A stretch of 64,000 nt of DNA from Haloprofundus salilacus (lineage in GTDB: Archaea > Halobacteriota > Halobacteria > Halobacteriales > Haloferacaceae): assembly GCF_020150815.1 (NCBI RefSeq), contig NZ_CP083723.1:62001-126000 (forward strand), given 5' to 3'. Below, piece after piece: positions 34,013-54,662 of this stretch. Under the pieces are notes generated by a model. It ran no database searches, was not told the origin of the DNA, and saw only the letters and a list, made by a program, of their open reading frames with translations. Both the position numbers and the translations under genes were made by a program. The stretch's first letter is position 1. Every line of letters begins with the position of its first letter.

Positions 34013-34177
34013 CTAGTGGCCTCGGCTTCTTCAGATTCTATTGAATACGCATGGGGCGCGATAGTGTGGTTACGTCTGCAACAGAGTGTGAATTCAAGAG
34101 ACGAACGGCAGACGGCTGAGGAGTTCAATACGATTCGAGGTAGCACTCCTACTCTCAAGCAACGAGATGCAGATACT

Positions 34178-34493: not shown

Positions 34494-34497
34494 TTCG

Positions 34498-35421
34498 CTA
34501 CGTTTGGGTTTCTTGTTCTATCTTCTCACGTGTTTCAAGTACGAGGTCTGCGTCGAGATCTAACTCGTATTCATAGTATTGGCCACCACTCAGACCCTTG
34601 TTTCGCTCATAACGTTTGGTGAACCCCAGCATATGGAGATCAGAAAGATTGTCTTGAACACTTTTTAGCGTCGTAAGTGCGTCTACGCCCCACGAGGCAG
34701 CAACCGTTTCGTAGTGTGACTGGATGGTCTTCGAACGGACTCGTTTGTTGCCCTGTTTGTCAAGGCGCGCAATTGTCTCTAAAATCAGTTGCGTGTGTTC
34801 TGTCTGGTCACGTATCCGGTTGCTCAGTCGACCACGTTGGACGAGCTCTCGGGCTTCCTCAATGTGTTTGTCCGTTACGCATAGCTCTCCGTTTTTTTCG
34901 GCAACCTCAGAGCCCACTCGGAGGAGATCAATTGCTTGGCGTGCGTTCCCCATGTCCTGAGCTGCAATTGCAGCTGTCATCGTAATTGCCGACATATCGT
35001 ACCCACCATCGATGAACGCGCGTTCAGCACGATCGAGAAGAATCGTTTTGAGTTCGTGTGCATCGTACGGCGAGAACGAGATCTCGGTTTCCATCAGCGT
35101 GTCTTTGACTTTTAGAGAGAGACCCGACCTGAACGTGTAGTTGTTGCTAATTCCAATGATGCCGATACGCGCATCTGTGACGTGCCCATTCGATCGGGCT
35201 CGTGGCAGTTCGTACAGAAGCGTATTCGCATCTGTGAGGTGATCAATCTCGTCGAAGACGAACAGATGCGTGCCACCTATCCGGTCCAATTGACTATAGA
35301 GTTCTTCGAACGCATCGCCTGTCCCCAACCCTCGTTTTGGGAACTCGCTTGCATCTACTGGGAGAAGACCATTTACCAGGCGTCGAACAGCCATGAATAG
35401 CGTCTTTCCGTTGCAGTTCAC
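34498..35421 (-). pseudogene. Orc1/Cdc6 initiator lacking its Walker A region
   Basis: 307 residues are visible. Walker B is FVFDEID, sensor 1 GIIGISNN, sensor 2 GNARQAIDLLR, and a winged-helix domain follows (LILETIARLDKQGNKRVRSK, LSDLHMLGFTKR). Full-length haloarchaeal Orc1/Cdc6 is about 400 residues and has a GxxGxGKT loop roughly 30 residues before the VNCNG segment. Here the frame opens at VNCNGKT, preceded by a TAG about nine codons upstream. The ATP-binding end is missing, so it is either a relic or an unusual DNA-binding fragment. It may still bind the adjacent iterons. Confidence 0.7.
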
Positions 35422-39054: not shown

Positions 39055-40218
39055 ATGGCTGTGTCCGACCACGACGTGCTGGCTCATCTTGCTGGGGTAC
39101 AATCGATAGGGGACGTCACGCCCTATGCGGTTCTCACCCGGCTCAGCGAGGAACCAGCGAGTTTCGACACACTCGCAGATGAGTTCGATGTCGACCGGAC
39201 CACGATTTACCGATTACTCAACCCAATCCGTGAGTGGCATTTTATCTCGAACGAAGGTGTTGACCACGACGGATACGAGGTAACGGGACTCGGAGCGGTT
39301 GTGCTTCACCACATCGACGTAACGACTACCGCCGACGAATTTGGAGATCCTGATTCGAGTCTCTCATATCTGCTTGGTGCAACGTCGAGACCGACAATAC
39401 TCAAACGTCTTAGAGAGGCCCCGTCACGGAAGGCCGACCTCTCTCGTGGTCCTAATGCACCATCCCGTTCGACAGTCCATCGAGCTATCAATGGCTTCAC
39501 TGACCACGAGTTAGTCGAACGAGATTACTCAGCTGGCCACTACAAACTTACAGACTCTGGGCAGGAAGTAATCGCTACGTATGAATCACTGATCAACGGT
39601 GTCCATATCGCCCGACGACATACGATATTTTTCTGCTGCTGTGATGAGCGAATAGCCGACATTCCAGTCACATCGCTTGCGACGGTTGAGCGAACCATCG
39701 ACGAGGCGATCTCTCCAGAGCGGACTATTCTTGCGCTCAGAGAGCTGGTAGAGAACGGAATTACAGAAGTCCGTGGACTCCGTTCGCATGTTTCAGCTCA
39801 ACTTGCGGATATTTTCTATCCGGTTATCAAATCTGGTGTGCCGTACGAATCAATAATCACCGAGCCAGTACTCTATAACCTTCCGAGAACTGGTCGATAT
39901 CGAGACATTGTAAGTACTGCACTTCGTGCTACCAATGTTCGGATACTCGTTGTTCCTGGGATTGAAGAATTCCCCTTTGGGTTGGGAATCCTCAACGGAG
40001 ATACTGTTGTGTTAGCTCCAGCTAGCCCTGGTCATGCCGTGAATTTCGGAAGTGGTCTTCAATCAGAGACTCTCATCGGTCACGACCCAGAGCTGATTGC
40101 TTGGGCCGAGAAACGGTACGCGGAGTACCAACAAGTTGCACGATCACCTCTAAGGTATGTAATCGCCGACTTGTTCAACCGGGCTGTCCCAATCGATACA
40201 GAGCATAAATCAGAATAA
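39055..40218 (+). CDS. Double winged-helix FilR1-like regulator
   Basis: 387 residues from ATG 39055. Two winged helices are visible: residues about 18-85 (YAVLTRLSEEPASFDTLADE, RTTIYRLLNPIREW) and about 110-180 (PTILKRLREAPSRKADLSRG, RSTVHRAINGFTDHELVERD, YKLTDSGQEV). The remainder (about 200-370) is FilR1-like (VRGLRSHVSAQLADIFYPVI, ILNGDTVVLAPASPGHAVNF). The promoter CATTTAACGG sits about 27 bases upstream. It directly precedes the VirB-like operon and is a good candidate for its regulator. Confidence 0.75.
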   Translation: MAVSDHDVLAHLAGVQSIGDVTPYAVLTRLSEEPASFDTLADEFDVDRTTIYRLLNPIREWHFISNEGVDHDGYEVTGLGAVVLHHIDVTTTADEFGDPDSSLSYLLGATSRPTILKRLREAPSRKADLSRGPNAPSRSTVHRAINGFTDHELVERDYSAGHYKLTDSGQEVIATYESLINGVHIARRHTIFFCCCDERIADIPVTSLATVERTIDEAISPERTILALRELVENGITEVRGLRSHVSAQLADIFYPVIKSGVPYESIITEPVLYNLPRTGRYRDIVSTALRATNVRILVVPGIEEFPFGLGILNGDTVVLAPASPGHAVNFGSGLQSETLIGHDPELIAWAEKRYAEYQQVARSPLRYVIADLFNRAVPIDTEHKSE

Positions 40219-40274
40219 TAGTCAAAATATTGTTAGGAATTTAGGCTATCTTTTCCACGGGTCGCAATCGTGTT

Positions 40275-40805
40275 GTGACGGATGACTACATCGACCTACC
40301 TGATTCAGAAGTAGTCGTAATGTCTGATATGAATTGCTCTGACTCCGCCAACGTTGGCGAGAGTAGTTTGTCGACAACCGAACAGTATGGATGTACATTT
40401 CCATCGCTCCCCGGCTTCCGATGTCAATACGACTCTGTTCTCCAAGGGTCCGTGCTTGTCTCGTTACTCCGAATAATAAGCACGCTCGCAGTTGTCGCCC
40501 TATTCGCGTCACAACCCGTCCTCGCGCAGACAACTGGGACTGCCTTCTGTGATACGGACATGGCACAAACGATCAAGAATCTCTTCACCCTCATCCAGTT
40601 CGGTGGTCCACTCGTCGGTGGAGTAATCGCACTCGGCACGACGGTTGCGCTCCCGACAGTGCGGCGCGCTGATTTGAAACAAGAACTCAAAGAAGCTCGT
40701 AACCAAGCCGTCGTATGGGGTGTCATCGTCGCCCCGCTCGGAACGGCGATCATTGGCTTCCTTCTCACCGAAGTCGTCTCTGGAGGCGTAAGTTGCGGGT
40801 TCTAA
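40275..40805 (+). CDS. Small double-TM protein of the VirB-like operon
   Basis: 176 residues if the GTG at 40275 is used; an ATG at 40320 is an alternative and the conserved part may start later. A signal-like helix (IISTLAVVALFASQPVLAQ) is followed by a mature part with two helices (LIQFGGPLVGGVIALGTTVA and AVVWGVIVAPLGTAIIGFLL) separated by a basic loop. Signal plus two short helices is the layout of VirB2/TrbC-type pilins. It overlaps or nearly abuts the following gene, consistent with an operon. Confidence 0.6.
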   Translation: MTDDYIDLPDSEVVVMSDMNCSDSANVGESSLSTTEQYGCTFPSLPGFRCQYDSVLQGSVLVSLLRIISTLAVVALFASQPVLAQTTGTAFCDTDMAQTIKNLFTLIQFGGPLVGGVIALGTTVALPTVRRADLKQELKEARNQAVVWGVIVAPLGTAIIGFLLTEVVSGGVSCGF

Positions 40806-42508
40806 GCCCCAGACTGTCTGGAGGCGTTCTCGTCTTCGCACTGGCGGTGCTTGCACTCACCCTGACTGTGACTCCGTCAGCTGCGCACCCATCTAACAAA
40901 TCCGACCACGGGCTGAACGAGACGACCTACTGCACGCTGTGGGCAGGTGATGAGGATGTCTCGAACGTCAGTGCACTCGAAAGCCGTCCGAACGAGTCGT
41001 CAGCAGAACTGTGTACGATTGCTGCGGGAACGGATATCCCACTTGACACACCACCCAAAGCGGTCGAGCAGTGGAACCGTGGCGACCTACAGGAGTTCCC
41101 AACTACGGATGCAACTCAGTCGGTTCATCCACTGAACGCAACGCTCAGCGATGGGCGGTTCATCAAAGATGCCTACACCGAGATTTTTGCAGTTCAGCCC
41201 TCGACGCGCGCAAGACTGTCCCCGACTGACCAACCGCTGTACGTCGCCTCGAATGGAACGCTTCTTGGAACTGTCGACTATCGCGTGGCTGTTCCAACAG
41301 CGGAGACAACTGATAATCGCCGGACGAACTGGGAGGTAGTTGACCACGAAATCGTCGGGACACGGCTGCTCGTTGATGGTGACGTAGAATCAACGGCATC
41401 CGGGACTCACACGCCTGAACTACCCTACTCACTGGATAGCCAGACAGACGAACCACACTCACTCACGCTCGTCGCAGAAATCGCAGTCACAGTAGAAAGA
41501 CGCGTTTCTGTCTGTACTGCTCGCGACGCACGAGGTACCTGTCTCGAATGGAATACCCAGCGTGAACGCCGGACGGAGACACATATCGTCCGCGATAGCA
41601 CCGATGTGGTCGCATACGACCTCACCATCTCGGGCTATCACGCGGTGTATCCCAACGGCGATCTCGGTCTCGTCGTCTACAAGAATCAGCCGTGGCTTGG
41701 CTACTCTCTGCCAAATGGTGACGTCCGTGGTGTATGGCGCTTTTACTCTGCACGAGACCCAGAGTGGGATACACTCGTTACGAGCACGGATGAGGGTCAG
41801 ACAGTCGACCACTCTTCGCTGCATCCGCTACAAGTGCATGCCTATCCAATCGAGACCGGTCCAACACCATCTCCACGTCGGACAGTGACGATTCTGGAGA
41901 CCTACGGTGTGGAGACACAGCCACCGACACTGCCCGAGACTGTCCTGTTGGGCGCTACTGACGAACCGTATACTGCAAGCTACGGAATTGCGACTCGAAC
42001 CAAGTCGACCGAGAACGACCTCACAGCAGTGACGGCGTACGGCCTCGTTCGTGGTGTCGAAGCCGATGCAAGTGAATCGTCCTTTGTCACAGTCCCGCTC
42101 AACGAGAGCGAACTCACGCTTGACGTCCTGAACACGACTGAAGACTCGGTCACGGTTCGCGTGAGCCTTCGAGATACGCAGACGGGCGAACCAATCAACA
42201 CCCACGGCCGAGAGGAATACGTCGTTCTCCAGGGCCAGCGTATGAATACCAGTGACAATGGAACGCTGACGACGACGCTCTCACAATCGACAGGCAGCGT
42301 TTCTGCACGGTACGAGCCTGGTCGTTGGTGGCGGTCAGTTCCCGGCTATGTAGGTGATTCGGACGTGGTGTACGTACGGGGGCCGATACAGTCGACGCTC
42401 TCTGTTCTCTACGAGGTCGCCGTTCCCGTGTCGCTCTTCTTGCTGAGCGTGTTCTTCATCGACCGAATCACTGGGTGGCGTGTGTGGCCTCCGTGGAGGC
42501 GGTTGTAA
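40793..42508 (+). CDS. Exported surface protein of the conjugation-like operon
   Basis: The most likely start is the TTG at 40793, preceded by GGAGGCG, overlapping the previous gene by 13 bases. The product has about 571 residues: a signal peptide (GVLVFALAVLALTLTVTPSA), a large extracellular region with many N-x-S/T sequons and paired cysteines (VSVCTARDARGTCLEW), and one C-terminal membrane anchor (VPVSLFLLSVFFIDRITGW). No enzymatic motif. The stop overlaps the next ATG by one base (TAATG). Perhaps a contact or channel component facing outward. Confidence 0.7.
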   Translation: MRVLSPRLSGGVLVFALAVLALTLTVTPSAAHPSNKSDHGLNETTYCTLWAGDEDVSNVSALESRPNESSAELCTIAAGTDIPLDTPPKAVEQWNRGDLQEFPTTDATQSVHPLNATLSDGRFIKDAYTEIFAVQPSTRARLSPTDQPLYVASNGTLLGTVDYRVAVPTAETTDNRRTNWEVVDHEIVGTRLLVDGDVESTASGTHTPELPYSLDSQTDEPHSLTLVAEIAVTVERRVSVCTARDARGTCLEWNTQRERRTETHIVRDSTDVVAYDLTISGYHAVYPNGDLGLVVYKNQPWLGYSLPNGDVRGVWRFYSARDPEWDTLVTSTDEGQTVDHSSLHPLQVHAYPIETGPTPSPRRTVTILETYGVETQPPTLPETVLLGATDEPYTASYGIATRTKSTENDLTAVTAYGLVRGVEADASESSFVTVPLNESELTLDVLNTTEDSVTVRVSLRDTQTGEPINTHGREEYVVLQGQRMNTSDNGTLTTTLSQSTGSVSARYEPGRWWRSVPGYVGDSDVVYVRGPIQSTLSVLYEVAVPVSLFLLSVFFIDRITGWRVWPPWRRL

Positions 42509-43362
42509 TGGCGCGAACAAACGGCGTCTCTCGTCGAACACTGCTCAAAGCAGGCGTTCTCGGTAGCGTCACCGCCCTTGCTGGGTGTACCCAAGATGAC
42601 GATGCAGCAGACGCAACAACATCCACGAGCGCCTCTGAGAATTTGGTCTTTCGTGATGTCTCGTTCGATGGTCCGTATCTAATCGTACGGTTACGAGAGG
42701 ACCATGCAGTCACGAAACTCAATCTCATTGCACCAGATGGCAGTTTGTTTACACGGACGGGTGTTCCAGAGGGTGTGACAAGAGCGAGTCTTCAATTGTT
42801 GGATGTGGGCGCTGGAAAGCACTACATTCCAGGACAGCACAGATTAACTGCGGTTACTCCTGGACAAGATTCGGCTTCAACATCTGTTGATCTCGTACCA
42901 GAACTCAAAATTGTCAATGTGAGGCAGTACTCGTCAGGCCGATCAACACCGGGAAATCGGGGTAATGTGGTTGTGAGAGTCGAAAACAGGGGAACTGGTC
43001 CAACCTGGATATACAACATTGCTTATGAGAACGCACTGTATGACGCAGCGAATAGTCTCGATGTTTCACCGAATCTTCCAACCGCTAATCTTGCTCTCCC
43101 GAAGACTGCAGCTGAGACAGTTCTGCATCCGAATGAATCTCAGGAGTTTATGGGATCTATTCCCCCATTTCTTATTACAAATTCAGAGGCCTGTGATGGC
43201 CGGTCATCGAAGACCGTCGTTATCGCACAAGCGGCAGGGAACAGTACTACACGAAGACTAGTTCGGGCGTCGTATTCGGGGGAACTCCTAAGCGCAAATT
43301 TCCAAGCGAGCTGTAGCGAGGTTTCAATCGAGATGCTTCGAAGAGAGGCCGAGAATGCGTAA
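42508..43362 (+). CDS. Tat lipoprotein of the conjugation-like operon
   Basis: 284 residues from ATG 42508. Twin-arginine signal SRRTLLKAGVLGSVTALAGC with lipobox LAGC, an acidic serine/threonine linker and a beta-sandwich-like body. A C-terminal part contains VVVRVENRGTGPTWIYNIAY. The stop lies inside the next gene, which starts at 43355, giving an eight-base overlap. GC content and codon choice drop in this gene relative to its neighbours, suggesting a separate origin. Confidence 0.75.
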   Translation: MARTNGVSRRTLLKAGVLGSVTALAGCTQDDDAADATTSTSASENLVFRDVSFDGPYLIVRLREDHAVTKLNLIAPDGSLFTRTGVPEGVTRASLQLLDVGAGKHYIPGQHRLTAVTPGQDSASTSVDLVPELKIVNVRQYSSGRSTPGNRGNVVVRVENRGTGPTWIYNIAYENALYDAANSLDVSPNLPTANLALPKTAAETVLHPNESQEFMGSIPPFLITNSEACDGRSSKTVVIAQAAGNSTTRRLVRASYSGELLSANFQASCSEVSIEMLRREAENA

Positions 43363-44707
43363 GTGGACAAAATGTGCTCTCCTTATCGGGCTACTCATCT
43401 TGATTGCTAATCCTGTTGCGGCGCAGTCTGGGGATAGCAGTGGCGGCGCACTCGGTGATGTAATTGTAGCTGCACTCCAAGAGGCACTTAAAGCCCTGTT
43501 CGCACCTATCGAGGGCATTATTGAAGAATACGCAGGCGATCTTGTGGAGACAGTTGTTGAAACGCCTGCACCCGATTCGGTCTTCGATGAGCCCGGTAAT
43601 GGTGCCTGGCCAGGTATCTATGATTACTACTGGAATGCGATTATCCCTCTCTCATTATTCCTCTGGGGACTCTCTATAGGGGTAATCATATTCTTTGAGG
43701 CGACGAGTAATCTGTTCAGCGGCTACCACCGCTCGAAGCTCAAGAAGCGGGCATTTACTGGGCTCTTAGGAATTCTCTCGTGGTGGTGGATTGACGCGAT
43801 TTCGCGACAACTGATTCAAGAGCTATCGGTCTACCTTATCCCCGACCTCTCACAAATTTCGCTCTTTCAGACGTTGTCGTTTAGTGCAATGGGAGTTCTT
43901 GGAATAGTTGTCACTTTGGCAACTGATTTTGTCCTATTCGCACTTGTCGCAATGATTTACTTTGTCAGACATATTGTCCTCTATCTTTTCACCCTGTTCA
44001 TGCCGATACTCATCGCATTCTGGATACCGGGCGTCGGCCCGTTTTCGCTCGTCTCTGGGTTCATGAAGCGACTGGCAGGATTCTACGTGCCGTTTCTCTT
44101 CATGACCGTTCCTGTCGCACTGTTGTTCCGAGTCGGTGAGATCATGGGTTCGAGCTTCGAGCTCTCGATGGGCGGTCTCGGTGCGTGGCTCACCGCGCTC
44201 ATCATTCCTATCGTTGCGGTCGTCTCGCCGTTCGTGCTCTTCTGGCAGGCCGGTGCGCTGTTCTTCATGACCGACCGGATGGCACAACGTGTCTCGACGC
44301 AGCGTGCTCGAACGCGTGTCAATCAAACCATTCAGACAGGACGAGGCGGCGCACAAGGCGGACAGAACTTCATGCGCGGTGTACGCGGCCAACCTGCGAT
44401 ACGAGCCGACGGTCAAACGGTTCTCAATTCAGGTAACTCACGCGCCCACGCAACCGGATCTCGGCTCAGCGCATCAGGGTCGCAACTTCGACAACGATTC
44501 AGCAGAGACGCCGACACAGTTCCAGCATTACCCTCTGGGTCGAACACAACCCGATCTCGGCCAGAGTTCTCGGTTACAGACAGCCGCAGTCAGCGCTTCG
44601 AGAACCTTCGAAATCCGGAGACTTGGACATCTTCTCGCTGGGCAGACTCGCGCGAGCGTGAGCACCGTGAGCCGACGAATACCGATGACCGACCAGACAA
44701 CGAGTAA
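43355..44707 (+). CDS. VirB6/TrbL-like polytopic membrane protein
   Basis: 450 residues. A signal (CALLIGLLILIANPVAAQS) is followed by about six helices, among them IIPLSLFLWGLSIGVIIFF, LFALVAMIYFVRHIVLYLF and LGAWLTALIIPIVAVVSPFV. A long hydrophilic C-terminal tail (residues about 310-450) is rich in Arg, Ser and Thr. VirB6 proteins share this helix arrangement and large soluble tail. They form the inner-membrane channel. The next gene starts three bases after its stop. Confidence 0.7.
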   Translation: MRKWTKCALLIGLLILIANPVAAQSGDSSGGALGDVIVAALQEALKALFAPIEGIIEEYAGDLVETVVETPAPDSVFDEPGNGAWPGIYDYYWNAIIPLSLFLWGLSIGVIIFFEATSNLFSGYHRSKLKKRAFTGLLGILSWWWIDAISRQLIQELSVYLIPDLSQISLFQTLSFSAMGVLGIVVTLATDFVLFALVAMIYFVRHIVLYLFTLFMPILIAFWIPGVGPFSLVSGFMKRLAGFYVPFLFMTVPVALLFRVGEIMGSSFELSMGGLGAWLTALIIPIVAVVSPFVLFWQAGALFFMTDRMAQRVSTQRARTRVNQTIQTGRGGAQGGQNFMRGVRGQPAIRADGQTVLNSGNSRAHATGSRLSASGSQLRQRFSRDADTVPALPSGSNTTRSRPEFSVTDSRSQRFENLRNPETWTSSRWADSREREHREPTNTDDRPDNE

Positions 44708-44709
44708 CC

Positions 44710-45723
44710 ATGCAACACACTGATCCAACCAAACGCATTCCAAAATCGCTCGGTACCGACCCAAAACTATTCGGCACGTACACACTGACGGACCTCGCAG
44801 TCGCGTTGTTCCCGGGCGTGCTCGTCATCTTGTTCACGCAGGTCGTGCTCTCTCCGTCGACGGCGATTGCTGGCTACCGATTACAGACATTCACCCTCCC
44901 CGTTGCAGGAGGCGCGATCGCCATCGGGGCGTTGTTCGTCTATCTCACGCCAACGTACACGACAAGTCTCGATTGGTTCGCGACGTTCATTGGATTCCAT
45001 CGACGCGCGAAAGAGCTCACTCACGAAGACGCCAAACAGTACACACAAATCGAACGTGTCCATACTGAACGAGGCGCCATCGAGCGAACTGATGGCGCTC
45101 TGCTTGGGCTTGTCCACGTCACGCCACCGACGATGGCGCTCGCAACTGATGCGGAATGGGCAACGAAAGCGACGGCGTTCGAAGACTTCTGCAACACTGT
45201 CGTCGAATTCCCAATTCAAATCTATTCGACGACGCAGCCGTTTCCCGCAGACGAGTATCTCGCCCAGTACGAATCTAGACTCACCGATTCGGATGTGAAG
45301 GAGAACCCGAGACTTGCCGCACTCATCGAACACTACATCTCGTGGTACGCAGCAGACCTCGACGAGCGGCGGATGACGATTCGCGACCACTACGTCGTCG
45401 TCTCGGTAACACCCGCTGAGGTTCGCTTCGAGCGTGAGAGTCTCACCGAGAAACTCGCAGCCGTGCCTCTTCTCGGATTATTCGTCCAGGCACGATTCGC
45501 ACCCCGCATCGAAGAGCAACGTGAGGCGATGTTCGATGCATTAGACGAACGACTGCGGCGAATCGAAGGCGGACTCCGTGGGATAGAAGGCTGTAATGCA
45601 CACCGTGTCGACACTGGAGATGCGACGCAACTCATCTGTGAGTTCTGGGCAGGCGAAGAACGCGACTATCAGGATATCACTCGCGTGTTGCGGACGCGGC
45701 CACTCGTCGGAGGCCGCGAATGA
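44710..45723 (+). CDS. PrgI/VirB3-like membrane protein
   Basis: 337 residues. The N-terminal region has the PrgI/VirB3 signature: a short cytoplasmic PTKRIPKSLGTDPKLFGTYT, then two helices (LAVALFPGVLVILFTQVVL and PVAGGAIAIGALFVYLTPTY). The soluble remainder resembles the N-terminal portion of VirB4/TraC proteins (ALLGLVHVTPPTMALATD), as if VirB4 were split over two genes. Its stop overlaps the VirB4-like ATG by four bases (ATGA), indicating coupling and probable complex formation. Confidence 0.7.
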   Translation: MQHTDPTKRIPKSLGTDPKLFGTYTLTDLAVALFPGVLVILFTQVVLSPSTAIAGYRLQTFTLPVAGGAIAIGALFVYLTPTYTTSLDWFATFIGFHRRAKELTHEDAKQYTQIERVHTERGAIERTDGALLGLVHVTPPTMALATDAEWATKATAFEDFCNTVVEFPIQIYSTTQPFPADEYLAQYESRLTDSDVKENPRLAALIEHYISWYAADLDERRMTIRDHYVVVSVTPAEVRFERESLTEKLAAVPLLGLFVQARFAPRIEEQREAMFDALDERLRRIEGGLRGIEGCNAHRVDTGDATQLICEFWAGEERDYQDITRVLRTRPLVGGRE

Positions 45724-47786
45724 ACTGGAAGCGACTCCGATTTTGGCGTCGTGCTGAAGGTGAAAGCCGTGAGGGGAGTGGCGAGTCTGAGGCAGTCTCT
45801 GTCGACTACGAGACAGAACACGGTCGTCTCACGACCGCTTCGGACATCCATCAGACGATCATCGCGCCATCCGATATCGAGCGGACACCGAACGCGGTTC
45901 GAACGGGCGAACAGTGGGCGCGGACGCTCTGGATTGGCGAGTATCCTGATGCACCAGCTGATGGGTTGTTTGAGACGCTGTATTCGAGTTCAGAGACCCG
46001 AACGACGGATATCTCGCTTCATCTCACGCCACGGGATACACACCGGACACTCGACTCGCTTGAGAATCGTATCGAAGACCTCGAAGCCGACTACGAGTAT
46101 CTCGAAGAAAAGCGACGGGCGGGCGCTCGCGGTATTCAAAAAGATCTCGAAGACTACCGCCAAATGTACGATGTTCTCCGGAATACGTCGATGAAGGCGT
46201 TCGACACGTCGATGTATCTCTCGGTTCGTGGACCCACTCCTAAAGAGATTCATTCAGACGCAGTCGCGAACACGGCACGACGTTCGCCTGCGAATCTCAC
46301 GCCGATTACACCGCGATGGGCACAACTGGACTCGCTCGTCTCTGCGAGTCCAGTTGGCGTTGACCGACTCAACGACTCGATGCAGACTCGAACCCCGATG
46401 TTGGGAGGGGCGGTCGGTGCGATGTTTCCCTTCGTTGCAGGCGCGTTTGCCGAACCAGGAATTGAGTACGGAACGTACGCACTCAACGAGAGTCCACTCA
46501 TCTTGGACCGATTCAACCGTGAGACGGGCTACTGTACGATGGTCATCGGTAAACTCGGCGCAGGGAAATCGTTCTCGACGAAACTCCAGCTCGTTCGCCG
46601 AGCGATGTACGACCCCGAAACGGTCATCATCATGCTCGATCCACTGCAGGGCTTTGCAGGTGTGAACGCCGCACTCGGTGGCGAGCGTGTGACAGTCGGG
46701 GGGACGCGTGGATTCAACCCACTCGAACTCAAGCCAACACCTGGAGACGTTCTCGCGGACGTCCCCGACCTCGATCCGTGGTCAGAGCAAATCTCGTGGG
46801 TGCTGACGTTCTTCGAGACGTTCTTCACCCACGTCGCGACCCATCCGCTCGGTGACCGAAAGCAGACACTTCGACGGGCGATTCAAGACGCCTACGAACG
46901 CAACGGTATCACCCGCGACCCAGCAACGCACAGCTGTGAGTCACCCACCGTACGAGACGTCATTACCGTCCTTGAGGACCTGCTTGATGACCCGACTACG
47001 TTTGGCTACGCAACCGCGGGCGAACAGCGAAGCGTTGCTGACGATGCTCAGTCTCTATTGAAGGACCTTCGACCGTCGTTTCACGAGGGCGGTGACCTCG
47101 CCAATCTCGCGAAACCAACGGAGTTCGACCTCGATTCGAGTGTCGTCTACCTCGACCTCCACCAAGAGGAGGGAACGCGCGGGCGGACAGAGACCAGTCT
47201 GATGATGCAGGTGTTGTTCAACGCCGTCTACGAGCGTGCGAAAGGCACTGAGAAACGCGTTGTGTTTGCGATTGACGAAGCCCACTATCTGATGAACGAT
47301 ACGACCTCGCTTGAGTTCTTAGAGACAGCAGTTAGACACAGTCGACACTACGACCTCTCGTTGCAGTTCATCACACAGACGGGCGGGGAGTTCGCTCTTA
47401 CACCGGAGGCGCGGACGATTGCGAATCTCTGTTCGATGACGCTCATCCATCGCGTTCAAGAAGAAGCCGAGACGCTTGCTGACTGGTTCGGATTGAGTGA
47501 GCGCGAAGTAAACTGGGTACAGACGGCAAAGGCCGGTAACGACGAGGACGGCTATTCAGAAGCACTTCTCAATATCGACGAGGAGGGCTGGTTCCCGCTT
47601 CGGGTTCGTGCGAGCCCGTTCGAGGCAGACGTTATCGCGAATGGATTCTCGCAGAGGGATTTACCGGATTCATCGGTGGCTACGAAGCATGACATCCAGA
47701 CGGTGACTCAGAGGAATGGCCAAACACTCTCAGTTTCTCAGTGTGACGGCGGCGAGGAGAACTCCACCGACCAGGAGATGCGGTGA
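45720..47786 (+). CDS. VirB4/TraC-like conjugation ATPase
   Basis: 688 residues. Walker A GKLGAGKS near residue 278, Walker B VVFAIDEAHYLM near 514, and an arginine-rich motif RHSRHYDLSLQFITQTGGEF after it. A coiled-coil (LENRIEDLEADYEYLEEKRR) precedes the ATPase domain at about 115-150. VirB4 proteins power pilus assembly and substrate transfer from the inner face of the membrane. Short N-terminal length fits with the missing part being carried by the previous gene. Confidence 0.85.
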   Translation: MNWKRLRFWRRAEGESREGSGESEAVSVDYETEHGRLTTASDIHQTIIAPSDIERTPNAVRTGEQWARTLWIGEYPDAPADGLFETLYSSSETRTTDISLHLTPRDTHRTLDSLENRIEDLEADYEYLEEKRRAGARGIQKDLEDYRQMYDVLRNTSMKAFDTSMYLSVRGPTPKEIHSDAVANTARRSPANLTPITPRWAQLDSLVSASPVGVDRLNDSMQTRTPMLGGAVGAMFPFVAGAFAEPGIEYGTYALNESPLILDRFNRETGYCTMVIGKLGAGKSFSTKLQLVRRAMYDPETVIIMLDPLQGFAGVNAALGGERVTVGGTRGFNPLELKPTPGDVLADVPDLDPWSEQISWVLTFFETFFTHVATHPLGDRKQTLRRAIQDAYERNGITRDPATHSCESPTVRDVITVLEDLLDDPTTFGYATAGEQRSVADDAQSLLKDLRPSFHEGGDLANLAKPTEFDLDSSVVYLDLHQEEGTRGRTETSLMMQVLFNAVYERAKGTEKRVVFAIDEAHYLMNDTTSLEFLETAVRHSRHYDLSLQFITQTGGEFALTPEARTIANLCSMTLIHRVQEEAETLADWFGLSEREVNWVQTAKAGNDEDGYSEALLNIDEEGWFPLRVRASPFEADVIANGFSQRDLPDSSVATKHDIQTVTQRNGQTLSVSQCDGGEENSTDQEMR

Positions 47787-47793
47787 GGTATCG

Positions 47794-48681
47794 ATGAATC
47801 CGAACGCGCTCCCGATCGAACTTCGTCATCGCCCGCAGTGGGTCTGCTGGGCCTCTCGAAAGCGAGACGGCAAGCAAACGAAGGTTCCACTAAATCCTGC
47901 GAGTGGTACGTTCGCCTCGACTGCCGATGCAGCTACGTGGGGGACCTTCGACGAGGCGTTGGCTCGTGCTACTCAGAATGGTATCTCGGGAATTGGTTTC
48001 GTCTTCACCAGTGACGATCCGTATGTCGGTATCGACCTCGATGACTGTCGTGACCCCGATGCGGTGACGCTAAATGAAGACGCCATCGAGATTGTCAGGC
48101 ATCTCCGGTCATATACTGAAGTCTCGCCATCAGGAACGGGAGTACATATTATCGCTCGGGGGACCCTCCCCAGTGGCCCACGTCGACGCGGGATGGTTGA
48201 GATGTACGACGAAGGCAGATTTTTCACGATGACTGGCAATCATTTGCTAACGACGCCCGAACAGATCTGTGAGCGTTCGCGCGTGATTCGAAGCGTCCAC
48301 GCTACCTTCGTTTCCACCTCTGGATCAACTAATTCAGCGAGACTATCTACCAAGCAAACCCGTGAGCTAACGTTCACCCCGCAATTGGATGATGAAGAAA
48401 TAATCCAACGAGCGCAGTCAGCAGCGAACGGTGAGAAATTCTCGGCGCTTTGGAACGGCGATATCAGTGGATACGACAGCCATTCGGAGGCTGATATGGC
48501 ACTGTGTTGTTTGCTTGCGTTTTGGGCGAATCGTGACGCGTCTCGCGTCGATCGACTCTTTCGGCAGTCCGGGCTGGTTCGACCGAAGTGGGACGAGGTC
48601 CACTACGCTGATGGGGCTACCTATGGGGAACGGACGGTTGAGCGTGCCTGTGTCCATGTGAGCGAGCAATATTCCGAGTAA
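47794..48681 (+). CDS. Plasmid/phage-type primase-like protein (NrS-1 polymerase-like)
   Basis: 295 residues from ATG 47794; in-frame codons back to 47716 overlap the VirB4 gene and are not used. The primase-type core includes RPQWVCWASRKRDGKQTKVP, IGFVFTSDDPYVGIDLDDC, SYTEVSPSGTGVHIIARG and FFTMTGNHL. The C-terminal helical domain contains SEADMALCCLLAFWANRD and ERACVHVSEQYSE. This combination is found in bifunctional primase or helix-bundle proteins of mobile elements. It starts seven bases after the VirB4 stop, so it belongs to the operon. Confidence 0.75.
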   Translation: MNPNALPIELRHRPQWVCWASRKRDGKQTKVPLNPASGTFASTADAATWGTFDEALARATQNGISGIGFVFTSDDPYVGIDLDDCRDPDAVTLNEDAIEIVRHLRSYTEVSPSGTGVHIIARGTLPSGPRRRGMVEMYDEGRFFTMTGNHLLTTPEQICERSRVIRSVHATFVSTSGSTNSARLSTKQTRELTFTPQLDDEEIIQRAQSAANGEKFSALWNGDISGYDSHSEADMALCCLLAFWANRDASRVDRLFRQSGLVRPKWDEVHYADGATYGERTVERACVHVSEQYSE

Positions 48682-48845
48682 GGAGACAACCGACTGGTAA
48701 CAGTCTGCCTGGTGGATTCGACACTCCTCTCGTCTCTGTCTTTCAGCTTCTGTTGCATCGTTGTGTCCTAAACCACACACGAATCGTGATGATTTCTAGA
48801 GGTTCTTCGCAGTGTTTATTATGTATCAATTTCACCGCCTTAACG

Positions 48846-50270
48846 ATGTTATCCGGATGGCGGTACCGCGTCGTTAGCGTCGTCGGCGCCGCCAGCCTCA
48901 CGGCCCTCGCGGTCTACTTTGCCAACCACGGCCTCGTACAGTGGCTGTTCACGACGTACGTTCCGCTGTTCAATCGCCTCGACGCGCACGTACTCGAAGG
49001 CGTCTCGCTCGATCGCGCCGTCTGGACGGCGGTTCTCGCGGTGCTCGTGAGTCTGGTACCGCTGTACAAACCGCGTCCGCGACGGATTCTGGATGTCGTT
49101 TCTCTGACACAAAAACACGTCCTCATCGCGGGACTCGCGCTCGCGACGTTTGGCTATTTCGAGTGGTCGCACAGACTCCCGCGGGCGACGCTCGTGATGG
49201 TCGTCGCAGTGCTTTTGATCGCAATGCCAACGTGGTTCGTCTGGATTCGGCGTCAACCCCCCGCAGAGTCCGGGCGGACAATCATCGTCGGCGACGACCC
49301 CACGCTCATCGACCGCATCGCACAGGAGGTGTCGCTACCGGTGCTCGGCTACGTCTGTCCGACGAGCGCACTGCCGCGCACCCGACAGCAGACGGTCGTC
49401 GACGGGGATACGGGGACCGCTGACGCGAGGGCTGACGGCGGCGACATGCTCCCGGAGCTCTCCCACCTCGGCGGGTTCTCGCGGTTGGACGACGTGCTCA
49501 TCGAACAGCACGTCGACACGGTGGTGCTGGCGTTCATGCGCCCCGACCGCGCAGAATTCTTCGGCGCGATCGACGCCTGTCACGAACACGGTGTCGAGGT
49601 GAAAGTCCACCGCGACTACTCGGACTCGGTGTTGACCGCCGAATCGAGCGTGGGGACGGTGGTAGACGTCGACATCGAGCCGTGGGACGTACAGGATTAC
49701 ATGCTGAAGCGCGCGTTCGACGTGGTGTTTGCTGCAGTGGGGATTCTCGTATTCGCACCGCTGATGCTCTTCATAGCAGTGGCGATTAAGTTAGATAGCT
49801 CTGGCCCCGTATTGTATAGTCAAGAGCGCACAGCGGGGTTAGGGGAGACGTTCAAGGTGTATAAGTTCCGATCGATGATTCCTGAGGGTGAGTCGGCGAC
49901 GCCAGTTGAGGACAACGAGAACGACCGAATTACGCGTATAGGTCATGTACTACGGCGGACACATCTAGATGAATTGCCGCAATTGTGGTCAATCTTGAAT
50001 GGAAAGATGAGCACCGTAGGTCCGCGAGCCGTGTGGACCAACGAAGAAGCGCTTCTGGAGCGTGAAATCCACATGTGGCGCAAACGGTGGTTCGTGAAGC
50101 CTGGACTGACGGGGTTGGCGCAAATTAATAACGCAAAGAGCACAGATCCGGACGCAAAACTGCGGTACGATCTAGATTACATCCGGCGGCAGTCATTTTG
50201 GTTTGATCTGAAGATAGTAGTGCGACAGGTATGGAAGGTGTGTGAAGACGTGTCTGAGCATTTCAGATGA
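48846..50270 (+). CDS. Priming sugar-phosphate transferase (bacterial sugar transferase family)
   Basis: 474 residues from ATG 48846. Four N-terminal membrane helices are followed by a soluble CoA-binding-like part (TIIVGDDPTLIDRIAQEV) and a last helix before the catalytic domain (RAFDVVFAAVGILVFAPLML). The conserved catalytic motifs are KFRSM, RTHLDELPQLW, KMSTVGPRA and KPGLTGLAQI. It transfers a sugar-1-phosphate to a polyprenyl phosphate to start a surface glycan. Base composition drops sharply near 49700-49800, within the gene, so the catalytic half appears to have been exchanged. A TATA-like TGTTTATTATG lies about 25 bases upstream. Confidence 0.9.
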   Translation: MLSGWRYRVVSVVGAASLTALAVYFANHGLVQWLFTTYVPLFNRLDAHVLEGVSLDRAVWTAVLAVLVSLVPLYKPRPRRILDVVSLTQKHVLIAGLALATFGYFEWSHRLPRATLVMVVAVLLIAMPTWFVWIRRQPPAESGRTIIVGDDPTLIDRIAQEVSLPVLGYVCPTSALPRTRQQTVVDGDTGTADARADGGDMLPELSHLGGFSRLDDVLIEQHVDTVVLAFMRPDRAEFFGAIDACHEHGVEVKVHRDYSDSVLTAESSVGTVVDVDIEPWDVQDYMLKRAFDVVFAAVGILVFAPLMLFIAVAIKLDSSGPVLYSQERTAGLGETFKVYKFRSMIPEGESATPVEDNENDRITRIGHVLRRTHLDELPQLWSILNGKMSTVGPRAVWTNEEALLEREIHMWRKRWFVKPGLTGLAQINNAKSTDPDAKLRYDLDYIRRQSFWFDLKIVVRQVWKVCEDVSEHFR

Positions 50271-50319
50271 CGGTATCGTTCAATCGGTGCTGTCTTAGCT
50301 CATAATTAGGAAATAATCA

Positions 50320-50640
50320 ATGCGAATCATTCGAGTCGCGCAGTAAGTCGATCTTGATGTGAGAGGTGGCGGTCCGTACTCCGTCCACACGATAAGTCGT
50401 TAATCAGCTATGGGGCACGATATGATTTTTTAACGGTCAGAGATGGCGTGAATCGCCCCGCATAGAGAAGAATGTGACGGATACACTGCTGTTACCCGTC
50501 ACGGCGTCGCTCTTCGGTAATGACATCTCGCGGGCGTCGCGTTGTCTTTCTGTGACGCTTATCCTACGACGTGATTCATACGCATTCATACCTATACTCA
50601 CTCGCCTTGCATACTTACAGAAGTATACGGTCGAGCGCCG
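50320..50640 (+). pseudogene. Decayed GT4 glycosyltransferase gene start
   Basis: ATG at 50320 reads MRIIRVAQ then TAA. The same gene continues as VDLDVRGGGPYSVHTISR, stop, SAMGHDMI, then FLTVRDGVNRPA in another frame, and further on YDVIHTHSYLYSLALHTY. These are the N-terminal motifs of GT4 enzymes (RVAQ, GGGPYxVH, DVIHxHSYLY). Several stops and frameshifts break the frame, and the C-terminal domain is absent. It explains the otherwise empty 400 bases between two active glycan genes. Confidence 0.7.
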
Positions 50641-50679
50641 AACGTAACAGAGTACGGAACGACAACCGGGCTTGCGTGA

Positions 50680-51879
50680 TCACTCGCGGGAGAGTTCGAG
50701 GATTTCCCTCACGGCCTCACGGAGACGTTTCCCGACACGTTCCCATGTGTAATGGGACCTGACGATATCGCGTGCCGCATAACCAATCCGTCGGCGACGT
50801 TCGACATCCGATAGTAGGCCAGTAGTTTCTGCGGCGAATGATTGCGGATTGTCAGCGACAACAAGGTGTCGTCCGTTGTCCGCCTTGATTCCTTCCCTAG
50901 CGAGGGAAGTGACCACAATGGGGCGGCTGAGTGCCATCGCTTCAAGGACCTTGTTCTGTAATCCTGCACCGTGGCGCATTGGCGCAACGACTACGTCTGC
51001 CAGATTAAGATACTCTCGAGGATTTTCAACGAATCCTGTGACGGTGACGCCGGGAATGTCATCAAGAACGGTCACTTTGTCACTCGGGCTAGAACCAACT
51101 ACGAGGAACTCGGCAGCCGGATACGTCTCGCGGACCAGCGGAAAAACCTCGCTGGCGAAGTATATGGCCGCATCCTCGTTTGGGAAGTAATCCATCTTTC
51201 CGAGGAAGACGAGCGTTGGCCCCGACTCCACTGCGCGGAGGGCGGTGGGTTTGCGTTCGAGAAGTTCGGGTTTTACGCCGTTCGGGAGTACGGAGAGCGA
51301 CGGGTACGACGCGCCCTCGGCGATGAACGAGCGGTCGGCATTCGTAATGATGAACGAGCGGTCGAACGTTTCCACAACCCGACGTTCGTACCGCCGTAGT
51401 CGCCGCCACTCCAACGGATAGATGAACCGCCAGAGCCCGGTCGAGTCTTGGCTCGCCTCCCGGTAGTTTCGAGAGATGGCATCCACAAGATCGACCACCT
51501 TCGGCGTCGAACGGTCCTGGACGTATTCCGTGGTGCGGACGTGGTTGCAGTACAACAGGTCGAACCGGTGTTCGTGCTCGTCCAGCCACGCGTCCACCGC
51601 TCCGAAGTGGAAGTAGTGCGCCTGGAGTGGATGCCGCGAAAACAGACCGGGAATCGTGTTTAGGTAAAACCGGTACGACGGGTAGGAGAACACGTGGACG
51701 TCCGCAAACACCGATTCGAGTTTAGCGACCGCCGTGTCGTCGACCGGGGCTTCGTCGACGACCAGCAGTTCGACGTCGTGCTCCCGCGCAAGTTCGCAGG
51801 CAGTGTAGAACATCCGGAGTTTCGCCCCACCGGTCAGCGGGTATGGGAGACGAGAACAGAGAACGAGTATGCGGGCCAT
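50680..51879 (-). CDS. GT4-family glycosyltransferase
   Basis: 399 residues. N-terminal start ILVLCSRLPYPLTGGAKLR, then DLVDAISRNYREAS in the linker. The nucleotide-sugar domain shows FLGKMDYFPNEDAAIYFA, VTGFVENPREYL and the donor-binding segment MRHGAGLQNKVLEAMALSRP. This is a retaining GT-B enzyme, probably membrane-associated on the cytoplasmic side, adding a sugar to the lipid-linked glycan. Its ATG overlaps the stop of the upstream GT gene by one base, so the two are co-transcribed. Confidence 0.85.
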   Translation of the reverse strand: MARILVLCSRLPYPLTGGAKLRMFYTACELAREHDVELLVVDEAPVDDTAVAKLESVFADVHVFSYPSYRFYLNTIPGLFSRHPLQAHYFHFGAVDAWLDEHEHRFDLLYCNHVRTTEYVQDRSTPKVVDLVDAISRNYREASQDSTGLWRFIYPLEWRRLRRYERRVVETFDRSFIITNADRSFIAEGASYPSLSVLPNGVKPELLERKPTALRAVESGPTLVFLGKMDYFPNEDAAIYFASEVFPLVRETYPAAEFLVVGSSPSDKVTVLDDIPGVTVTGFVENPREYLNLADVVVAPMRHGAGLQNKVLEAMALSRPIVVTSLAREGIKADNGRHLVVADNPQSFAAETTGLLSDVERRRRIGYAARDIVRSHYTWERVGKRLREAVREILELSRE

Positions 51880-53006
51880 CAGTCGCGTCGAACCTTGTTG
51901 AGCGCGTCACTGATGGTGAGCGCCGTACTTTTCCATGAGAACTGTTCTGCTCGCGCAAGTCCGCGTTCCCGGTACGTCTGCGCGAGGTCCGAATCCGTCA
52001 GCAGTCGTGTGATGGCGTCGGCGAGCGCGTCGGGGTCGGTGGGGTCGACCGTGACGCCGGCGTCACCGACGACGTCAGGTAGCGAGGAGCGGTCGGACGT
52101 GACGACGGGCGTACCCGATTGCATCGCCTCCAGTGGCGGAATTCCGAACCCCTCGTATAGGGAAGGGTAGACGAAAACAGACGCGAGGTTGTACAGTAGC
52201 GGGAGGTCGTCGTCGGGGACGTATCCAGGGCGATAGACAAGTCCCTCCGACCACGCGGCGTTAAGGACATCCTTGAACTCTGGGTCCGGGACATGGTCCT
52301 GGCCGACGACGACTACGGGGAGCCGGTCGGACTCAGGAAGCCGTGCAAGTGCACGGACCAGCGTCGAGACATTCTTCCGGGGCTCGACGTTCCCGACGAA
52401 CAATACGAACTCGTTGGGGAGGTTGTACTCCTCACGTAGCCTGTAGCGTTCGTCGTCGGAGAGGGTGCGCGGGTGGAAACGGTCGTCTGCAGCGGGCGGC
52501 GCGACAGATACCCTCGAGTTGGGGACATCGTAGAACCGCTGGAGGTCGCGTCTCGTGCTCTCGGAAACGGTGACGATGTGGTCGGCGGTGCGGATCGAAA
52601 GCGGGAGGAACGTTCGGAGGTACGCGCGGTACGCAGCGGTGTGAACCGCGGGGTGGACGCGGTGAACGAGATCATGGACGACGATGACGCTCGGCACGGG
52701 GCAGTAGATAGGTTTGAGGAAGTTTGGGCCGAGGAAACAGTCGATGTCGTCTACGCGGAGGACTCGTGGGAGGGTCACGTTCACCCACCACGCCGGCGCG
52801 GCGGGACCAAGGGCGCGGGAGATCACTTCGGAAGGAGGAATCGAAAAAGGTCGAATAGCGTCATTGACAAGCGGGAGTTCATCGATGGATGTACAGTAAC
52901 CTGTAGTTTCTAAGTCAAAGGAATCTGATGAAAGAACCCCCTGGAGGTAATTACCAACACCTGAGATATTGCCAGCGAGCGATCGGGCGTCGATACCGAC
53001 AGTCAC
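51879..53006 (-). CDS. GT4-family glycosyltransferase (mannosyltransferase-like)
   Basis: 375 residues. MTVGIDARSLAGNISGVGNY at the start, VIVVHDLVHRVHP and HIVTVSESTRRDLQRFY in the acceptor domain, and in the donor domain FVLFVGNVEPRKNVSTLVRA and YEGFGIPPLEAMQSGTPVV (EGFGIPPLE is the EX7E motif). The closest general type is MtfB-like mannosyltransferases. It is first in a two-gene operon with the following GT. The divergent polymerase-like gene starts 95 bases upstream, leaving a shared promoter region. Confidence 0.85.
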   Translation of the reverse strand: MTVGIDARSLAGNISGVGNYLQGVLSSDSFDLETTGYCTSIDELPLVNDAIRPFSIPPSEVISRALGPAAPAWWVNVTLPRVLRVDDIDCFLGPNFLKPIYCPVPSVIVVHDLVHRVHPAVHTAAYRAYLRTFLPLSIRTADHIVTVSESTRRDLQRFYDVPNSRVSVAPPAADDRFHPRTLSDDERYRLREEYNLPNEFVLFVGNVEPRKNVSTLVRALARLPESDRLPVVVVGQDHVPDPEFKDVLNAAWSEGLVYRPGYVPDDDLPLLYNLASVFVYPSLYEGFGIPPLEAMQSGTPVVTSDRSSLPDVVGDAGVTVDPTDPDALADAITRLLTDSDLAQTYRERGLARAEQFSWKSTALTISDALNKVRRD

Positions 53007-53101
53007 TGTGAGGCTCTATATCCTGTCTCACTCATAGTCACTTCGACTTTCCCAAGCGTGAATCAAACGACTTTTGCAGAGGAAGTTTCACACAGACACT
53101 A

Positions 53102-54661
53102 ATGCGACCGGCCTACCGGCATGGGATTGTCTCTTCTACCTTGCTTCTCCCAGTAACACTTTTTCTCGGAATTATTCTCCAAGAGATACTAGTTCCACTG
53201 CCAGGACTGATAAGTCTCGCGCTGACGTTAGTTACGTACGGAGGATATATCGTATATACAGAGGAGTATCGAATTGGGTTTCTTGCTGCCTTCGCTACAG
53301 CAGCAACGATCTCCGCAGATATCCCAGTTCTGGAAGAAACTGCAGCATTTGCTGGACCGTCTGTCGGGTCAATCTTCCTCATCGAAATCATTGCGATACC
53401 GGGTATAGCGTACTTGCTCTATGATTGGCGGGAGTGGGACCACGTTGAACTCCTCCTTACAGCGTATTCAGTTTGGGCTGCGATTTCTGTCGTCTTCGGT
53501 ATCGGCCCCGCAAAGGCGGCAGGGTTCTGGTTCGCTGCGTACTCATTCTTGGGAGTTATCTCGTATGCCATTTTCCGACGTGCGATTCAGCGTCGAATCG
53601 TCTCGTGCACCGAGGCTGTCTCGTTGTTCCTCTTCGCCGGCGCCGGCCAAGGACTCATTGCAGCTCTCCAATTGATTCACACGGCAAATTTTGGTTTAAC
53701 TACGCTCGGAGAAGGAGCAAATTCAAGCGGAGTATATATATCATTATTCCTTTACAAAGTCCCGATTGGAACGTATATCAGCGGGTTCATGTCAATGTCA
53801 TTTGAACTTGCGAATTATCTGGTCCTTCTCTTACCGGTGATAATAGCCTTCGCGATTTTGAAGCGGCAACAGAGATGGTCTAGTATCGCCTTGGGCAGTG
53901 CAGCGGTCATCGCAGCAGTGGGAGTCAGAGTGACAATGTCGGACGCTGCACGGGGAGGGCTGATTATAGCGCTCGGAGTGTTTATCGTAGCTCTTCTCGC
54001 AATGAGAGTAGATAATCGAATAGTCGTAGCGGCGGTAATACCGATATTGCCTGCGTTCATTCGGTCAACCACTTCCGGACAAGGGGTACTCGTCAATCAA
54101 GAAACGTCAAACCCGTCAACGGGCCCTACAGCCCCGGAGAATCCAACAACTACGCCGACATCCCCGACGGGAAACCCCGATCCGGTGAACATCAGTATTC
54201 CGTTCTTCGACCTCTCAAATCTCGGCGTTCGTCTCCAGCAGTATATCATTGGAATTCAAATGTTCATCAATCACCCGCTGTTCGGTGTCGGAGCGGCCAA
54301 CTATCAGTTGGTAGCGATGGGTTACGACGCTCCCTATCCCCCGGGTGGGGAGTTCCCCTACTCAATACACAGCATCTACATTACCCTCCTCGCCGAGACC
54401 GGGCTTCCGGGATTCTTCCTGTATACTTTGGCAGGAGCATCGGTGGTTCTCGGGGGCCTATACTACGGAGTCAGGGAACAGAACGTTCTTCTAAGCGGGC
54501 TTGCATGTGGTTTACTCGGAACTTTCGCGTTCGGATCGCTGGATATTCTCCAGTTGTACTATCCTACAGCATTCGTCCCGATCTGGGCCGTAGCTGGAAT
54601 TGCTGGCGCAATCTGTGGGGGAATACATCTACCTACACCAAGAGGCATATTCTCAAGATAA
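53102..54661 (+). CDS. O-antigen ligase/polymerase-like membrane protein
   Basis: 519 residues with about twelve hydrophobic segments. A large extracellular loop (residues about 330-400) is rich in Pro, Thr and Asn and contains N-x-S/T sequons. The family motifs VTMSDAARGGLIIALGVFI (with the conserved Arg) and NHPLFGVGAANYQLVA are those of Wzy/WaaL-type enzymes. In archaea these may join or polymerise lipid-linked oligosaccharides on the outer face. The GC content is lower than in the flanking GT genes. Confidence 0.75.
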   Translation: MRPAYRHGIVSSTLLLPVTLFLGIILQEILVPLPGLISLALTLVTYGGYIVYTEEYRIGFLAAFATAATISADIPVLEETAAFAGPSVGSIFLIEIIAIPGIAYLLYDWREWDHVELLLTAYSVWAAISVVFGIGPAKAAGFWFAAYSFLGVISYAIFRRAIQRRIVSCTEAVSLFLFAGAGQGLIAALQLIHTANFGLTTLGEGANSSGVYISLFLYKVPIGTYISGFMSMSFELANYLVLLLPVIIAFAILKRQQRWSSIALGSAAVIAAVGVRVTMSDAARGGLIIALGVFIVALLAMRVDNRIVVAAVIPILPAFIRSTTSGQGVLVNQETSNPSTGPTAPENPTTTPTSPTGNPDPVNISIPFFDLSNLGVRLQQYIIGIQMFINHPLFGVGAANYQLVAMGYDAPYPPGGEFPYSIHSIYITLLAETGLPGFFLYTLAGASVVLGGLYYGVREQNVLLSGLACGLLGTFAFGSLDILQLYYPTAFVPIWAVAGIAGAICGGIHLPTPRGIFSR

Positions 54662-54662
54662 T

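Follow-up and report, generated by a model that had tools for sequence, protein, structure and literature searches.

The 64,000-nucleotide (nt) window analysed here (positions 62,001 to 126,000 of the forward strand of contig NZ_CP083723.1, RefSeq assembly GCF_020150815.1, from the haloarchaeon Haloprofundus salilacus) contains an operon of seven plus-strand open reading frames (ORFs), B to H, at 40320-48681, as well as a gene for a coupling ATPase, X. With a probability of about 0.72, this is the type IV secretion system (T4SS; mating-pair formation) operon of a large plasmid-derived element that is integrated in the main chromosome-like contig and used for cell-to-cell DNA transfer. The proteins E, G, H and X are homologous to known T4SS, primase and coupling proteins, the gene order is conserved, and the genes are under purifying selection.

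Gene content and conservation of the operon

The first-pass annotation described seven genes that overlap or nearly touch, and the reading frames confirm this, with joints between -13 and +7 nt. The gene for the VirB2-like pilin B (40320-40805; start codon uncertain) opens with an ATG 101 nt past the stop codon of regulator gene A, and is followed by the genes for two exported proteins, C (40793-42508; TTG start, 13 nt overlap with B) and D (42508-43362; 1 nt overlap with C), the TrbL/VirB6 protein E (43355-44707; 8 nt overlap with D), a protein F combining a possible VirB3/PrgI-like segment with a TrsD-like VirB4 N-terminus (44710-45723; 2 nt gap after E), the VirB4 ATPase G (45720-47786; 4 nt overlap with F) and an NrS-1-type primase-polymerase, H (47794-48681; 7 nt gap after G). 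All ORFs from B to H are open throughout, and X is full length as well. The ratio of nonsynonymous to synonymous substitution (dN/dS), calculated by the Nei-Gojobori method for window genes against the same-genus relative G001, was 0.13-0.19 for C to H and X, 0.14 for regulator A and 0.42 for pilin B, indicating that the operon genes and X are under purifying selection.

Comparison with other haloarchaeal elements showed the order B-C-D-E-F-G, on one strand, to be shared by 80 named loci, which are the best 80 of 152 confirmed relatives from a genome-contig scan with the C family. Of these loci, 80 have C (by search design), 79 have B, 78 have E, and D, F and G were each found in 76; the misses of B, E, F and G fall at contig ends, and D was not detected in four loci. 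In a set of 124 loci, which includes the window and was mostly chosen for VirB4 or C, the counts were 118 for G, 112 for E, 108 for C, 99 for F, 93 each for B and D, and 74 for X. VirB4 relatives were found in 54 of 99 related genomes (own genome included) and F relatives in 137 plasmid records; the order recurs on haloarchaeal plasmids and chromosomes, with homologous genes on Haloarcula marismortui pHMA155 and on Haladaptatus and Halorubrum trapanicum plasmids.

Profile matches to VirB6 and VirB4, together with this conserved order, bear out the earlier assignment to conjugation-type (type IV secretion) operons. E matches Pfam TrbL_3 (6.9e-20; 71.7 bits against a cut-off of 23) and has seven hydrophobic segments. 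G matches the NCBIfam VirB4 model CD1110 at 2.6e-41, under that model's cut-off, and the PDB VirB4 structure 4ag5 at 1.8e-15; the best NCBIfam VirB4 models for G are presumably those of the Gram-positive and mycoplasma type. No profile placed A to H in an unrelated type IV pilus system, and Pfam showed no PilB/FlaI-type secretion ATPase, with a FlaJ-like membrane protein to accompany it, among these eight proteins; an unrelated type IV pilus or archaellum was rejected on this basis.

The N-terminus of F has two hydrophobic segments, and its residues 128-237 match NCBIfam TrsD (6.1e-6, under the cut-off); a more distant F, from locus L050, had no NCBIfam match at 0.01. According to the available text of PMC12102498, TrsD of Gram-positive plasmids is a remote homologue of the VirB4 N-terminal portion. 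The F and G domains lie in one ORF of 803-1217 amino acids (aa) in 14 of 117 rows, or 13 of 59 after thinning; in the remaining rows the VirB4 ORF lacks the F domain and F is mostly a separate ORF, and none of the 80 named loci has both domains in one ORF. The VirB4 split that had been read from the window is thus upheld, both by the relatives that have a joint F-G ORF and by the TrsD match of F. On the VirB4 tree, seven changes between the fused and split states are needed, at least five of them on well-supported branches, the number being uncertain because several rows lie on long branches; the window's clade comprises 25 thinned rows, all split. Judged from these sequence comparisons, the split is real, common to the window's clade and repeated elsewhere, and is not unique. 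A second VirB4 fragment occurs on another contig of the same genome (G000:C2:200023-200382, locus L002), with 38% identity to G residues 522-642 and one internal stop. A VirB4-like ORF25 is also described on pR1SE-type plasmids in the available text of PMC10818511.

Pilin B has a signal-peptide-like segment with a conserved A-Q followed by two further hydrophobic segments, a topology that suits VirB2. Its conserved Cys77 and Cys159 lie near the ends of the mature chain. Across 109 loci, the first cysteine stands 8 residues past the conserved A-Q in 109, the second is near the C-terminus in 108 (one gap), and exactly two cysteines fall within the last 110 residues in 104. As two helices are joined by a basic loop, both cysteines should face outside; B is predicted to be a candidate disulfide-closed pilin, in which the bond would join either its own ends or neighbours in the filament.

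Two exported proteins had been noted between the pilin and VirB6 genes, and both are conserved operon members. C has a signal-like segment, an all-beta ectodomain and one C-terminal membrane helix; its structure model (mean predicted local distance difference test score, pLDDT, of 74, with residues 1-93 below 50 and unreliable) is a string of beta sandwiches. D is a lipoprotein of the Tat (twin-arginine translocation) type, with an invariant RR and a nearly invariant lipobox cysteine (41 rows), and is modelled as two beta sandwiches (mean pLDDT 86). Against the PDB, the C model gave generic immunoglobulin (Ig)- or macroglobulin-like matches only, the top rows pairing domain strings at a root-mean-square deviation (rmsd) near 27-30, and one C domain matched 4zjg (Z 9.0, rmsd 1.9, 71 residues); when the PDB was searched by sequence with the C profile, the one match, TdpA at 0.3, was at chance level. 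For the second domain of D, a match was 8fk7, a flagellar-like pilus subunit from an archaeon (93 residues, Z 9.7, rmsd 2.5); unrelated Ig-like rows scored just one Z lower, and the match is a lead only. Going by the models, C and D look like surface stalks or adhesins and may act as such. A class II fusogen was considered for C and rejected: dengue E appeared in Foldseek at a probability of 0.16-0.51 with an rmsd of about 38-42 and was given no weight, and the absence of Fsx1 among the fold-match rows shown proves nothing.

The flanking genes A and H are accessory neighbours and not regular members of the operon. The FilR1-like identity given earlier to regulator A (39055-40218, plus strand) stands, with Pfam FilR1_middle at 2.7e-13, over the cut-off, and two winged helix-turn-helix stretches of the HVO_A0261_N kind. 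That A is the operon's own regulator does not hold: a homologue (E 1e-5 or better) is near the operon in 3 of 120 loci, namely L033 (same genus, 67%), L165 (258 aa, 1e-15, directly upstream of the pilin gene) and L143 (opposite strand), the last being the only case among the 80 named loci. The primase-like reading of the gene at the operon end holds, as H is an NrS-1-type primase-polymerase (Pfam NrS-1 HBD 1.3e-28, over the cut-off; PDB primase 7rr3 1e-43), and its homologue stands beside the operon in 9 of the 59 loci with room for it.

The coupling protein X and its nuclease-like C-terminus

The gene for X, a VirD4/HerA-like coupling ATPase of 1198 aa (30416-34012, minus strand), lies in the same window, upstream of the operon, at 5 kb from the regulator gene and 6 kb from that of the pilin, and had been overlooked in the first-pass annotation. 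X matches Pfam TrwB_AAD_bind at 1.2e-5 (24.8 bits against a cut-off of 20.5), the whole-protein score being over the cut-off while no single stretch passes; sub-cut-off matches are TraG-D_C (2e-4), DUF87 (1.3e-3) and NCBIfam VirD4-like CD1115 (6.9e-8). No hydrophobic segment was above threshold and X therefore looks soluble. An X homologue lies within the flank of 55 of the 80 named loci, in 52 on the same strand after VirB4 and in 3 upstream on the opposite strand; the latter arrangement, which is that of the window, is also seen in G001, G084 and a Haladaptatus plasmid (loci L053, L059 and L066). In many relatives the homologue follows VirB4 directly.

The C-terminal 170 residues of X make up a domain that a profile search detected in 143 genomes out of 293 from the order; among the 150 matches listed, 135 lie in ORFs of 1146-1562 aa, which are candidate coupling proteins. 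In the window the nuclease-like part (30500-30860, minus strand) carries D1092, E1107, E1109, D1122 and K1125. In 51 rows of this C-terminus (type I; 40 of the 51 picked by profile, all kept), D, E, E and the second D are present in 51 and K in 50, with pairwise identity down to 22%. The spacing to K is one residue shorter in 12 of the 51 rows, and L048 and L158 have about 30 extra residues between D and ExE. Type II coupling proteins (complete ORFs of 1318-1541 aa) end differently and show P-D, E-x-E and K in 36 of 36 rows, a conservation that is partly by construction because 34 of the 36 were chosen by an expression demanding most motif residues, with spacing left free. The D, E, E and K of type II match type I, in window numbering, at one offset, other offsets giving at most one polar residue, and the spacing of D, ExE and K is equal between the types in most rows.

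In a thinned set of 22 full-length coupling ORFs that were chosen solely for their profile coverage, inspection by eye found the first motif in 10 and the second in 12. A motif was found in 59 of 75 coupling ORFs (34 of type II and 22 of type I by expression, with L140, L048 and L158 added by eye); of the remaining 16, seven have no motif and nine are truncated at the end of the locus or masked. A profile-profile comparison of type I and type II C-termini gave an E value of 0.13 with the D, ExE and K positions aligned, and a larger-set comparison gave 0.49 with these positions not aligned. Pfam and PDB profile searches with the X C-termini named no nuclease family, the best Pfam match for type II being B12-binding (3.7e-4). 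Some type II proteins have a Pox_D5-like domain at the extreme C-terminus, past the motif, as in L102:16868-21277 (4.3e-5, over the cut-off) and more weakly in L044, L071 and L165.

From the motif and the element order read by eye (a helix, three strands of which the second carries D and the third ExE, a helix with K and a final strand, as expected of the alpha-beta-beta-beta-alpha-beta core of a PD-(D/E)XK fold), the X C-terminus is somewhat more likely than not to be a PD-(D/E)XK-type nuclease. That this nuclease-like domain could substitute for a relaxase is a far less secure proposal. A fuller scheme of relaxase-free haloarchaeal conjugation, in which the nuclease on the coupling ATPase would cut element DNA at the channel and the pilin ends would be closed by a disulfide instead of the peptide-bond cyclisation of TrbC/TrhA, is speculative and, taken as a whole, doubtful.

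Probable transfer function, rival explanations and genomic setting

We infer export of DNA between cells, mobility of the element, and the functions of B, C, D and H. In the proposed scheme, the pore in the membrane, together with a pilus or stub, would be built from pilin B and channel protein E, and F and G would jointly act as a VirB3-VirB4 energy unit; C and D, at the surface, may hold or bridge mating cells across the S-layer, X would feed element DNA to the channel, and the primase-polymerase H may synthesise the complementary strand. With respect to the strict conjugative set, VirB4 and a coupling protein are present and a relaxase of the families searched was not found, and the system is filed as a T4SS and not as a strict conjugative element for this reason. 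The first-pass annotation proposed looking for a relaxase outside the window; genome-wide, PF03432 and PF08751 had no match (each was detected in one control genome), and neither did PF13814, for which no control genome matched either. In the available text of PMC9905601 and PMC12857230, archaeal conjugative plasmids are described without recognisable relaxases and DNA preparation is given as an open question, and in that of PMC3158045 many archaeal VirB4 proteins, often with coupling proteins, are reported and unknown relaxases are suggested.

Several other observations, like the missing relaxase, weigh against a T4SS for DNA transfer. In the B family (19 members), TrbC was matched in 6 (best 0.022) and T4SS_pilin in 2 (best 2e-4), with the unrelated SseC in 4 (best 0.0042), and a PDB search with the B profile gave VirB2 8cue only at E 5.6, behind unrelated chains; the VirB2-like candidate of the first-pass annotation therefore stands by its architecture, with weak profile support and SseC scoring as well. 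The same annotation had F as a VirB4 N-terminus fused to a VirB3/PrgI-like protein, of which the VirB4 part stands and the VirB3/PrgI part is weak: among 11 F family members PrgI was matched in 2 (best 0.018) and DUF5592 in 3 (best 0.017), F from the window itself gave no match to PrgI or to VirB3, and a PDB search with the F profile returned keratins only and no VirB3 protein. The operon proteins gave no VirB8- or VirB1-like Pfam match. An Orc1/Cdc6-like gene (34498-35421, minus strand; Cdc6_lid 1.4e-18, Cdc6_C 1.5e-17) lacks the N-terminal Walker A, and none was found in the three upstream minus-strand frames read to 36000; as the gene is truncated, this copy may not replicate alone. An integrase had no Pfam match among the 40 window ORFs submitted, other window ORFs being outside that set, and MOB-suite called all 137 plasmids with F relatives non-mobilizable.

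The rival explanation that survives best is a decaying remnant of a conjugative element that has lost the ability to transfer. The truncated Orc1/Cdc6, the position of the X gene away from the operon on the other strand, the broken VirB4 fragment on C2 of the same genome and the absence of VirB4 from the X contig of the same-genus genome G004 would all fit such decay; however, all operon ORFs and X are full length, and with the low dN/dS of C to H and X this makes a remnant unlikely. A domesticated import system of the Ced/Ted kind, whose VirB2-, VirB6- and VirB4-like parts take up the chromosomal DNA of neighbours for repair, would have the same minimal set, and the available text of PMC9905601 describes Ced and Ted as domesticated T4SS derivatives and knows of no relaxase homologues in archaea. 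This explanation is improbable, as the coupling protein is in line with the operon in 52 of the 80 named loci, many copies are on plasmids, and G reaches only 18.2 bits against the CedD model (cut-off 600), with CedB not listed for G. Least probable is a protein-secretion or contact-dependent T4SS moving effectors and not DNA, which would suit the lack of a relaxase, the surface proteins C and D, the two sub-cut-off Imm49-like proteins at 19115-20829 and the argument that many relaxase-less proteobacterial T4SS export proteins, but is opposed by the nuclease-like domain on the coupling protein, the frequent plasmid location, the primase-polymerase or Orc1/Cdc6 neighbours in some loci, the absence of any toxin family among window proteins scanned with Pfam, and the setting apart of archaea as possibly using unknown relaxases (both arguments as given in the available text of PMC3158045).

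Two genomes of the same genus retain X and a relative of the sugar-transferase gene at 48753. In G001 both stand with the operon on a 1.13 Mb contig. In G004 they share one contig (X 78.6% identical), while VirB4 matches lie only on two others, which suggests gain or loss of the operon inside the genus. Genes of contig C1 at 22-31.6 kb, before the start of the window, are collinear with the G004 main contig; beyond them both genomes have a variable region, which in G004 holds X and the sugar-transferase gene. The small regulators at 21016-22556, namely a PadR-type regulator, a 144-aa protein and a DUF7342 protein, belong to families that stand beside T4SS operons elsewhere (in 21, 16 and 20 of the 124 loci), and this recurrence suggests that the element reaches upstream to at least this point.

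Further features were seen around the operon. A 26-nt direct repeat is present in three copies at 34176-34495, between the X gene and the Orc1/Cdc6-like gene. A DUF7558 protein and its neighbour at 17464-17892 (together 17135-17892) have relatives near the operon on plasmids L065 and L067, with DUF7558 also in L066, and the two Imm49-like, immunity-type proteins lie near each other. Straight after the operon, 48753-64000 holds polysaccharide or glycosylation genes, the first being the sugar transferase, which has relatives on the X contig of two same-genus genomes. Exodeoxyribonuclease VII genes (annotated xseA and xseB on two plasmids) lie upstream of the T4SS operon at L065:6971-8209 and L067:7809-9046; the xseA family occurs in 36 of the 124 loci and not in the window.

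A repeat of about 85-110 nt occurs in 21 copies of one family at 330-30300, in one orientation and with roughly one copy between successive small ORFs. Genome-wide there are 38 matches, mostly in three clusters (G000 C1 56-92 kb and 767-781 kb, and C2 115-129 kb). The repeat ends are imperfect inverted repeats, and of three copies folded, one was well beyond shuffles (z -3.3) and two were not. The repeat resembles the attC sites of a cassette array, or a mobile repeat.

Comparison with known systems

The nuclease-like coupling protein is the most interesting feature of the system, and the two-cysteine pilin and the conserved pair of exported proteins also deserve more attention than the VirB4 split. 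The operon family is common in haloarchaea, and the analysis provides a parts list and, in the named residues of X, a concrete candidate for the missing DNA-cutting step. Some haloarchaea can be cultured and genetically modified. As one typing tool calls all 137 plasmids with F relatives non-mobilizable, haloarchaeal DNA exchange may be under-counted. A literature search, with preprints and most subscription papers outside its coverage, found no description of a haloarchaeal operon with C and D, or of a nuclease on its coupling protein.

Haloarcula marismortui pHMA133, which we take to be pNG500, has a similar series of an annotated pilin, a large protein, a smaller protein, a VirB6-size protein, a 'conjugal transfer protein' and then a T4SS DNA-binding-domain protein. 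By sequence, F corresponds to the first part of this conjugal transfer protein, and the other equivalences are by position and size. Unlike in the window, the VirB3/VirB4 N-terminus and VirB4 are seemingly one 1088-aa gene, and three small genes precede the coupling gene. In the available text of PMC3158045, pNG500 is the sole archaeal plasmid called conjugative.

The Ced and Ted systems share a minimal VirB2/VirB6/VirB4 machinery without a relaxase (available text of PMC9905601), whereas the window operon has a linked coupling protein, a plasmid location among its relatives, and C and D, and its sequence match to them is sub-threshold. Fusexin-carrying haloarchaeal elements are likewise integrated and carry VirB4 and TraG/TraD/VirD4 genes according to the available text of PMC9259645. 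In contrast to the pGO1 subclass of MPF_FATA (a mating-pair-formation class), the window operon joins its possible PrgI-like segment and the TrsD-like one in a single protein and encodes the Ig-like C and D; its coupling protein is larger and apparently soluble, and the relaxase families searched gave no match. The likeness to this subclass, which has TrsD, is that a TrsD-like VirB4 N-terminus is separate from VirB4, and the operon is probably a T4SS of the MPF_FATA kind, the class being taken from the published assignment of archaea, with haloarchaeal parts.

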